From NCBI GenBank assembly GCA_035651995.1, contig DASRER010000035.1, forward strand, positions 1 to 64,000: a stretch of DNA of 64,000 bases. The letters run 5' to 3'. The notes under the pieces are model-generated. The model was not told the DNA's origin and searched no databases. It was given only the letters and a program-made list of their open reading frames with translations. This document shows, piece by piece, positions 37,608-39,335 of this stretch (the stretch's first letter is position 1; each line of letters begins with the position of its first letter). The position numbers were made by a program, and so were the translations under genes. This DNA comes from Terriglobales bacterium. Lineage in GTDB: Bacteria > Acidobacteriota > Terriglobia > Terriglobales > Acidobacteriaceae.

Positions 37608-38546
37608 TCAGATTCCCACAGCTTCGTAATCGTCCGTATCGTCGCGCGACGGGCGGCGGCGCTGCTCGATTTCGTATGGCAAGCGCCGTTTTAGGCGCTC
37701 GCGTCGCAAGCGGCTGCCGCCCATCAGCGCCGCCGTGATCACGCCGCCGGCAAGCAGCGCGCCGGCCGCGGCGTTGCCCGGATTGAGCACGATCGGTTCG
37801 ACCACGCGGCTGCCCATGAGCGTGAGGCGGCCGGGAATGCCGACGGCTTCCTGAAAGTTTTCGATGCTGCGGCGTCCGCCGCGCTCCAGGGCGCGCCACA
37901 TGAAGACGGCGGCGCCGGTGTAGGGCGTGGATGTGTCTTCGCCGCCGCGCACGACGACGGACTCGTGGCGGCCGTCGCCTTCGGCCGCGCGCTGCTGCAA
38001 CCTCAGCAGCTCGTCGAGCGCGGCTGCCAGTGGGCGTCCCTGCGCCCACAGCATGCGGTAGGCAACGCGACCGGACTTGTCGATGACAAACGCGGGGTTC
38101 GCCAGCTTTCCCCAGCGGCGATGGACGGTGCCGCGCACGTCATCGATCGCGATGGGAATGTGGACATCTTCTTCGTCGCGCAGACACTCGGCGGCGGCGG
38201 CCTTCTGCGCCGGCGTGCGGTGCGCCGGCAGCTGGTCTCCAGGATGCGCCTCGCGAACGTAGATGAGCGCGAACTCCACGTCATCGCTGGCGTAGCGCTT
38301 GGCAAGGCGATTGAGGCTGCGAATGGAGGCGGCGGTCATGGGACACGTCGCGGAACCAAAGCTCAGGACCAGGTTCTTGTTGCCGCGAAAGTCGCTCAGG
38401 CGGAAAGGGTCACCATCGAGCGTGCGCAGGGTGAAGTCGGGTGCGCGTTCGCCCGGTTCCGGGGCGTCACGGAAACCGGCCCTGAGGTTCTCCAGCCCCT
38501 GCTCGCGGGTGAAGGCGGCGTAGTTGTAGGGCTTGTAGCCAAACAT
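37608..38546 (-). CDS. iodothyronine-deiodinase-like redoxin
   Basis: 312 residues from ATG 38546 (AAGGAG 9 nt upstream). A thioredoxin-fold domain at about 30-190 begins [20 protein letters not shown], with a single active cysteine in [14 protein letters not shown], where animal deiodinases carry selenocysteine (S-U-T-C-P). The [11 protein letters not shown]-like part reads [20 protein letters not shown]. The C-terminal 120 residues include one hydrophobic segment ([20 protein letters not shown]) and are unassigned. It is divergent from the probable seleno-peroxiredoxin. Deiodinase activity is not implied. Confidence 0.78.
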
Positions 38547-38794
38547 GGCTCGGAACTCCTTGGCTGGAAATTTTACGCTTGGCCCCGGGCGCGCAGGCCG
38601 CGCGACCACCGATTTTGATGCCGCGGGCGCGCGGCGGCGTTGACCGGCTGATTGATTTTTCCAAGCGCGGATTTTTTGTGAGCGCGCCCTTGTTACCGCG
38701 GATGCCTTACGTGGCGACTTGTCGCATCCTGACGCACCCAATAAAATGCCAGTTCCACTTTTTTCTGCGGTTCAATCCCCTAAGTGGAGGTTGC

Positions 38795-39280
38795 ATGGCA
38801 CCACTGAAAGTCGGAGACATGGCGCCCGACTTCGAACTGCCGGCGGTCACCGGCGAACAGCGGCACCGGGTTCGGCTGAGTGACTTCCGCGGCAAGAAGC
38901 ACGTGGTGATTGCTTTTTATCCCCTCGCCTGGACTCCGGTGTGAGCGGCCCAGATGCCGGCGTACAACGCGGACTATGACAAGTTCGCCGGCTACGATGC
39001 CCAGGTCGTGGGCATCAGCGTAGATTCCATCCCCAGCCACCTGGCGTGGCAGAAGCGCGACATCGGAATACTGCGGTATCCGCTGGCGAGCGACTTTTGG
39101 CCGCACGGCGAGACGGCCCGCAAATTTGGCGTCCTGCGCGAGGGCGATCCCATTCCGGGGATCAACGAACGCGCCGTCTTCATCGTGGACAAGGAAGGCA
39201 AGATCGTCTTCTCCAAGGTGTATCCCCTTGACCGCCAGCCCGATAACGAAGACGCGTTTGAGGTGCTCAGAAAGCTTTAG
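38795..39280 (+). CDS. peroxiredoxin with in-frame TGA at the peroxidatic Cys (probable selenoprotein)
   Basis: 161 codons. The start follows GGAGG. The AhpC/TSA-type domain opens with [18 protein letters not shown] and [13 protein letters not shown], then TGA (38942-38944, codon 50), then [20 protein letters not shown] in the same frame. The TGA occupies precisely the peroxidatic Cys position of the PxxxTxxC motif ([10 protein letters not shown] in ordinary homologues). The rest is undamaged: [56 protein letters not shown]. There is no other Cys in the protein. A hairpin suited to a bacterial SECIS begins 11 nt after TGA. The simplest reading is a selenocysteine peroxiredoxin reducing peroxides. 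A recent nonsense mutation is the alternative. selA/selB are not in the window. Confidence 0.8.
38942..38992 (+). promoter_or_regulatory. TGA codon plus candidate bacterial SECIS hairpin
   Basis: After TGA at 38942-38944, a perfect 7-bp stem pairs gccggcg (38956-38962) with cgccggc (38986-38992). An inner aac/gtt pairing (38966-38968 with 38983-38985) leaves a 14-nt loop starting with G. The loop lies about 24-38 nt after TGA, within the window known for bacterial SECIS elements. Identified by eye; folding was not computed. Confidence 0.6.
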
Positions 39281-39301
39281 CAGCACTTCACGACCTGCAG
39301 G

Positions 39302-39335
39302 AAGGCCGCCCGCAACCGGGTGGCCTTTGTTTTTG
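39302..39335 (+). terminator. terminator of peroxiredoxin gene
   Basis: Stem aaggccgcccg / cgggtggcctt with a 4-nt loop followed by tgttttt, 21 nt after the stop codon at 39280. An intact terminator supports the whole frame being one expressed unit. Confidence 0.85.

Follow-up and report, generated by a model that had tools for sequence, protein, structure and literature searches.

A selenocysteine peroxiredoxin gene of a Terriglobales bacterium with a probable two-hairpin recoding signal

Introduction

Selenocysteine (Sec) peroxiredoxins are already known in bacteria (PMC13188914), and at the protein level the gene described here is a new member of known selenoproteins. The closest described enzymes are the TxxU Sec peroxiredoxins, namely the Eubacterium acidaminophilum and the Sargasso Sea peroxiredoxins, which share with our gene the AhpC/TSA family, a peroxidatic Sec and the PxxxTxxU motif (PMC13188914, PMC1088965). 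Our protein differs from them in having no second Cys and in falling below the curated PrxU cut-off (NF040737; 76.2 against 270 bits). It also resembles the one-Cys peroxiredoxins of the AhpE type (Rv2238c) in its short chain of about 160 residues. We take a DFWPHG-like segment to be common to the two. AhpE has Cys where our protein would have Sec, and in a structure comparison of the predicted model the Prx1-type chain 5zte ranked first, above the AhpE chains that came next (target TM-score 0.93 for 4x0x).

On the RNA side, published bacterial SECIS elements have an apical loop of 3-9 nt with a G in its first two places, often followed by G or U, an upper stem of 4-16 bp, a minimum free energy of at most -7.5 and a distance of 16-37 nt from the UGA to the loop (PMC13188914, section 5). 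According to the same section, the SECIS of some bacterial selenoprotein genes departs from the standard model, and there may be distinct classes. In the SECIS of E. coli fdhF the fixed sites are U17, G23 and U24 (PMC8659212). The gene reported here carries two hairpins past its UGA, hairpin 1 (proximal) and hairpin 2 (distal), and of the known elements those of fdhF and of SelD are most like hairpin 2, being coding-region hairpins past the UGA whose short G-C rich stem carries a GGU or GGY loop. Hairpin 2 differs from the SelD SECIS in the position of its loop, at 58-59 nt instead of 20 nt from the UGA with another hairpin between, and from the fdhF element in that the stem in the window gene lacks a bulged U like U17 (PMC8659212). 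A two-hairpin signal of this kind is not described for the TxxU Sec peroxiredoxins in the accessible portions of PMC13188914 and PMC1088965. The reading that we favor, at a probability of about 0.92, is that the gene encodes a Sec enzyme and that both hairpins belong to its RNA signal; the division of labor between the hairpins is excluded from that figure.

Results

The gene lies in a window of 64,000 nucleotides from a soil acidobacterium of the order Terriglobales (Table 1). A sequence-only reading of this stretch had described one frame from a GGAGG-preceded ATG to position 39280, holding no Cys and interrupted by a single TGA right after FYPLAWTPV, and had predicted that standard gene calling would split it into two useless frames. 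Sequence and translation agreed with this description at every point, and translation table 11 does yield two separate frames. The strong terminator claimed downstream fared less well: a terminator-like hairpin is present, but it is weak when taken alone, as it occurs about as often in shuffles (Table 1).

Table 1. Features of the Sec peroxiredoxin locus, numbered from the first nucleotide of the window
Feature	Positions	Strand	Details and basis
GGAGG ribosome-binding site	38786..38790	+	4 nt upstream of ATG; sequence
Predicted Sec peroxiredoxin	38795..39280	+	161 codons + TAG, TGA = codon 50; AhpC-TSA 8.9e-36
In-frame TGA (predicted Sec codon)	38942..38944	+	peroxidatic position of PxxxTxxU; frame and alignment of relatives
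Hairpin 1 (proximal)	38956..38992	+	7-bp outer stem, 11 nt past TGA; folding and comparison
Hairpin 2 (distal)	38996..39016	+	stem GAUGCCC / GGGCAUC, loop AGGUCGU, GGU = 39004-39006; comparison, covariance model
Intrinsic-terminator-like hairpin, then GTTTTT	39301..39328	+	1 found, 1.1 expected by chance in shuffles
Divergent deiodinase-like redoxin (Cys form)	37608..38546	-	ATG start adopted, longest frame reaches 38741; T4_deiodinase match

With the TGA read as Cys, a profile search placed the product in the AhpC/TSA family (PF00578, 8.9e-36), and its predicted structure (mean pLDDT 96.5) was confidently that of a peroxiredoxin. Among 22 aligned peroxiredoxin sequences R126 was invariant, P43 was nearly so and position 47 was Thr or Ser; the domain, the fold, the PxxxTxxC/U motif and the active-site Arg of the window protein are together those of a peroxiredoxin. 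No signal peptide was visible in it. Lacking any Cys, the protein is expected to be a 1-Sec peroxiredoxin, reduced, we infer, by an outside thiol.

Relatives were sought in 397 Terriglobales genomes, of which 135 gave a match at 1e-20. All 68 listed matches whose frame held a stop, among them the window gene, were fetched together with 42 without a stop, and as the latter are a selection among the matches listed, the two numbers are not a frequency. TGA stood exactly at the aligned codon 50 in all 68 of the matches listed with a stop, and the 42 carried Cys (26) or Ser (16) there. In a survey of named genomes, a few of which overlap with the order set, the best 80 of at least 579 relatives had TGA at 50 loci and Cys at 30, and the TGA loci among these 80 came from Acidobacteriota, Bacillota (Neobacillus, Litchfieldia, Anaerobacillus and Sulfobacillus), Chloroflexota, Anaeromyxobacter and Zixibacteria, among others. 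The expectation that homologues would show Cys or Sec at codon 50 was thus confirmed for both residues, with a clade of Ser paralogues besides, and the in-frame TGA of the window gene aligns with the catalytic Cys of homologues, as in bacterial selenoproteins. Past the TGA (codons 51-114) dN/dS was 0.06-0.15 in five pairs of close relatives and 0.14-0.28 between the window gene and six relatives; on these ratios, the codons past the TGA are under purifying selection. In one genome a decayed gene, or a sequencing error giving TGA for TGT or TGC, would look just like this, as a single stop in an intact frame, but the same TGA recurs in every stop-bearing match listed for the order and at 50 of the best 80 named loci, across several phyla, and the codons past it are under selection, which together refute that explanation and leave it a negligible probability.

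The machinery on which the sequence-only reading had made its case depend was all found in the window genome (99.35% complete): a tRNA-Sec with anticodon TCA (69.5 bits), selA (552 bits), selB (353 bits; cut-off 242) and selD (367 bits), the last with an in-frame TGA of its own and the tRNA gene on a different contig from the other three. Across the 397 order genomes, selB exceeded the cut-off in 61 of 65 TGA genomes against 104 of 332 others (Fisher 3e-22, uncorrected for kinship; hand-read), the TGA status being taken from among the matches listed. All four TGA genomes with selB below the cut-off are drafts (G303, G126, G364 and G167), in which assembly gaps or recent loss may account for a TGA peroxiredoxin without selB. 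Another way to read the locus is that the UGA is a regulated stop which another tRNA occasionally reads through, so that the product is either the 49-residue fragment or a C-terminal piece made by re-initiation. The two separate frames under table 11 and an ATG 9 nt past the TGA would suit it; the complete Sec machinery, the association with selB, the alternation of UGA with Cys at the catalytic residue and the fact that neither fragment holds the whole active site all speak against it, and we consider it very improbable. The alternation of TGA with Cys, the full machinery, the selB association and the hairpins tied to Sec described below instead uphold the earlier proposal of a selenocysteine enzyme, and by this comparative evidence the window gene encodes a predicted Sec peroxiredoxin of the TxxU kind.

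A 7-bp stem pairing 38956-38962 with 38986-38992 and starting 11 nt after the TGA had been noted from the letters and is indeed there. Taken by themselves, the 69 nt that begin at the TGA of the window gene folded no more stably than shuffles (z -0.48), and the RNA structures of the window stand out only by comparison. In Sec genes the region from +9 to +53, scored without a fixed register against codon-position shuffles, had a mean z of -2.76, with 99% of genes below -1 (n = 92), and in non-Sec genes the mean was 0.00 (Cys, n = 49) or 0.23 (Ser, n = 15). An upstream control region showed no difference in folding between Sec and non-Sec genes (p 0.17). A downstream control, +78 to +122, also differed slightly (mean z -0.65 in Sec against -0.02 in Cys and 0.77 in Ser genes; p 3e-5), so that part of a small fold shift may be composition. 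With the register fixed, all five core pairs of hairpin 1 were present in 67 of 114 TGA sequences and in none of 55 Cys or 16 Ser sequences, and in 60 order sequences, one register, 19 cells held compensatory changes, against a shuffle mean of 5.3 and above all 500 shuffles. On a tree with six independent Sec/non-Sec pairs on supported branches, hairpin 1 went with Sec in 3.6 contrasts and the reverse way in 0.0 on average (median p 0.125). The SECIS-like hairpin of the earlier reading is therefore real and, by its folding energy, tied to Sec genes, but it is probably not the whole SECIS, because a second conserved hairpin with a classical GGU loop follows 51 nt past the TGA.

This second hairpin, overlooked in the sequence-only reading and more invariant than the first, has a nearly invariant loop, A-GGU-NN-U. 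At least six of its seven pairs were present in 112 of 114 distinct TGA sequences from several phyla, but in only 10 of the 55 Cys and 2 of the 16 Ser sequences; GGU stood at its loop in 106 of the 114, 8 of the 55 and 5 of the 16. Among the 114 TGA sequences, pair +57/+71 was G-C in 83 and A-U in 27, pair +56/+72 was U-A in 90 and C-G in 12, and pair +58/+70 was a C-A mismatch in 21. Conservation past the TGA in the order TGA sequences was highest in hairpin 2. In the 65 order TGA sequences its Ala codon was GCC in every sequence that bears Ala (97%) and its Gln codon was always CAG; four codons, the commonest at 47%, were used at the same Ala site in the 42 Cys and Ser sequences of the order. 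On these codon counts, the synonymous sites at hairpin 2 are frozen in the order TGA sequences. Of the six tree contrasts an average of 5.5 placed hairpin 2 with Sec and 0.0 pointed the opposite way (p: median 0.031, range 0.031-0.375). The tree, built quickly from 156 proteins, carried a long-branch warning, and the codon 50 letters, Cys and Ser, had been left in its columns; none of the single pairs was significant on the tree. Being too invariant, hairpin 2 showed no excess over shuffles on three of five measures in 60 order sequences (paired cells 89.4 against 89.2%, no excess of two-sided changes), and it stood above shuffles only in further pair types (14 of 500) and in the covariation score (5 of 500). 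RNAalifold recovered hairpin 2 from +0 to +90 in the TGA set and nothing in the Cys and Ser sets; from +0 to +57 it returned no structure in any of the three. Between 38700 and 39400 there was no Rfam SECIS match, the sole match up to E 5 being a Phe leader (26.5 bits; gathering score 55).

A covariance model of hairpin 2, applied to the window genome, scored 53 bits on the window gene, 34.5 on a second strong match and 20.1 on the next. All 11 matches below 1e-6 in nine whole genomes lay in TGA peroxiredoxins, the genomes having been chosen for having the gene, three of them with sequences in the model and 150 candidates scored per genome; in G403 the only match, at 0.005, was within its own TGA peroxiredoxin. 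The unconstrained fold of the window gene (-31.9 kcal/mol) was 1.7 kcal/mol better than the two-hairpin fold (-30.2). When hairpin 2 was imposed, hairpin 1 spanned a median of 42 nt and ended a median of 2 nt short of hairpin 2.

Set against the published constraints, hairpin 1 has the distance and hairpin 2 has the loop. Hairpin 2 agrees with the published loop, stem and energy (-13.1 kcal/mol in the window gene), and its loop, 58-59 nt from the UGA, lies beyond the 16-37 nt range. We ran a simple scan of our own with the published constraints, which tolerated a single mismatch but no larger internal loop and was for that reason biased against hairpin 1. At 16-37 nt it found no hairpin with the remaining published properties in the window gene, and such hairpins in 11 of 114 Sec, 4 of 54 Cys and 0 of 16 Ser genes; at 56-61 nt the counts in the same genes were 88, 4 and 0.

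Hairpin 1 may itself be the SelB ligand, since it occupies the classical SECIS position: its start is most often 8 or 11 nt past the UGA, and its loop, at a median of 27 nt and a range of 18-30 nt, lies inside the published 16-37 nt (PMC13188914, section 5). It would then be the SelB-binding SECIS by itself, with an unusual loop (often GAYCU), and hairpin 2 would be auxiliary, for example a pause site or an enhancer. By folding energy hairpin 1 is as much tied to Sec as hairpin 2, position 30 is G in 73 and position 31 is A in 76 of 92 sequences, and 54 of the 87 single-hairpin folds have a G at loop position 1 or 2. Against this stand the variable loop and stem sequence of hairpin 1, in which the loop G is mostly followed by A instead of G or U, the peak of conservation at hairpin 2, and the scan, with few model-type hairpins at 16-37 nt against many at 56-61 nt, though biased against hairpin 1 as stated. 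The SelD SECIS elements of the same genomes weigh on the same side, as their loops nearly match that of hairpin 2. We recovered selD in 23 of 24 genomes with a TGA peroxiredoxin, 22 of them with a TGA in selD; each of these 22 had, in its predicted fold, a stem capped by GGC or GGU exactly 20 nt past the UGA, and the sole Cys copy of selD has lost the GGY hairpin. These GGY loops indicate that the SelB of these genomes most likely favors GGY, which points to hairpin 2 as its ligand, and we regard SECIS function of hairpin 1 alone as a tentative alternative, distinctly the less probable one. For comparison, the fdhF element, GCAGGUCUGC, was matched in 5368 of 5426 E. coli genomes, the three rows shown all being in fdhF.

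The opposite view, with hairpin 1 as a weak clade-specific stem and hairpin 2 as the only SECIS, had been based on the fixed-register count of 67 in 114 and on the few scan hits at 16-37 nt. It was dropped because the register-free energy test and the single folds tied both hairpins to Sec.

Discussion

The comparisons show a TGA where the catalytic codon stands, the machinery for Sec and a link of each hairpin to Sec, and in this way support a Sec enzyme with a signal that would include both hairpins. As a one-Sec peroxiredoxin of the AhpC/AhpE type, the protein would reduce peroxides with the selenolate of Sec50, positioned by Pro43, Thr47 and Arg126, and Sec50 would be recycled by an outside thiol donor; peroxidase activity and recycling are what we infer for it from its family and active site. 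UGA50 would be decoded by Sec-tRNA-Sec delivered by SelB. In the two-hairpin SECIS that we favor, hairpin 2, with a GGU loop of the sort that SelB would prefer, is probably the SelB ligand. Hairpin 1 would be a folded spacer, packing the roughly 40 nt between the UGA and hairpin 2, so that hairpin 2 would come to a SelD-like distance and lie near the mRNA entry of the ribosome while the UGA is in the A site; the medians of span and gap given above are consistent with such a role, towards which we incline with some reserve.

What is new is at the level of the RNA signal, namely a second, distal hairpin and the two-hairpin arrangement. In the literature searched, for the most part the text of openly available papers, no bacterial SECIS that is distal or made of two hairpins came up, and one may be in print. 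The balance tips slightly towards a distinct class of bacterial SECIS, in which the GGU hairpin recognized by SelB sits about 40 nt farther out and the gap is closed by another conserved hairpin acting as a spacer, the distance being set by the folded RNA and not by the count of nucleotides. Such a class would occur in the Sec peroxiredoxins of several phyla and not in the SelD of the same genomes, and if it holds true it would account for some selenoprotein genes missed by the standard model. The two-hairpin signal offers, for one candidate SECIS class, a concrete structure with predictions, it bears on how strictly the distance from UGA to SelB is set, and the covariance model of hairpin 2 finds genes of this kind, which standard gene calling would leave as two useless frames.

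Both distances seem to occur side by side. In the window genome a TGA redoxin of the PrxQ type (TPGU; G000:C20:244221-244607) has a GUU loop at 17 nt in its fold, so that, given the long distance of hairpin 2, one genome appears to use both. In a Sulfobacillus genome a TGA peroxiredoxin of another type forms a hairpin (-10 kcal/mol) whose loop lies at 19-20 nt.

A second putative Sec peroxiredoxin of the window genome (G000:C47:21816-22211; motif FTGGU), 37% identical to the window protein, has hairpin 2 at the same offset and is the 34.5-bit match of the covariance model; its start, judged by eye, is signal-peptide-like, and similar genes occur in G042 and G144. A further TGA redoxin of that genome has a UPNC motif (G000:C8:34384-34782). 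Candidate selenoproteins of the window genome are thus at least five, counting the window gene, the three genes just named on C47, C20 and C8, and SelD.

The neighboring gene had been taken for a divergently encoded, deiodinase-like redoxin in Cys form, and the profile match (T4_deiodinase, 4.5e-15) agrees, with the Cys in FGSATCPM. This Cys is presumably at the Sec site of the deiodinase family. Relatives of the redoxin lie on the opposite strand beside the peroxiredoxin in 24 other loci of the order, counted in flanks of 1-1.5 kb, some cut short by contig ends, and on the strength of these 24 pairs the two are probably functionally linked.

In the Ser paralogue clade (16 loci) Glu or Asp replaces the active-site Thr in 13 loci, as in NWEPVS, and 13 of the 16 genomes also carry a TGA form among the matches listed; the clade is perhaps a non-peroxidase relative. 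Relatives also occur on plasmid records, all below 60% identity, one of them on the Granulicella tundricola plasmid NC_015058.1.
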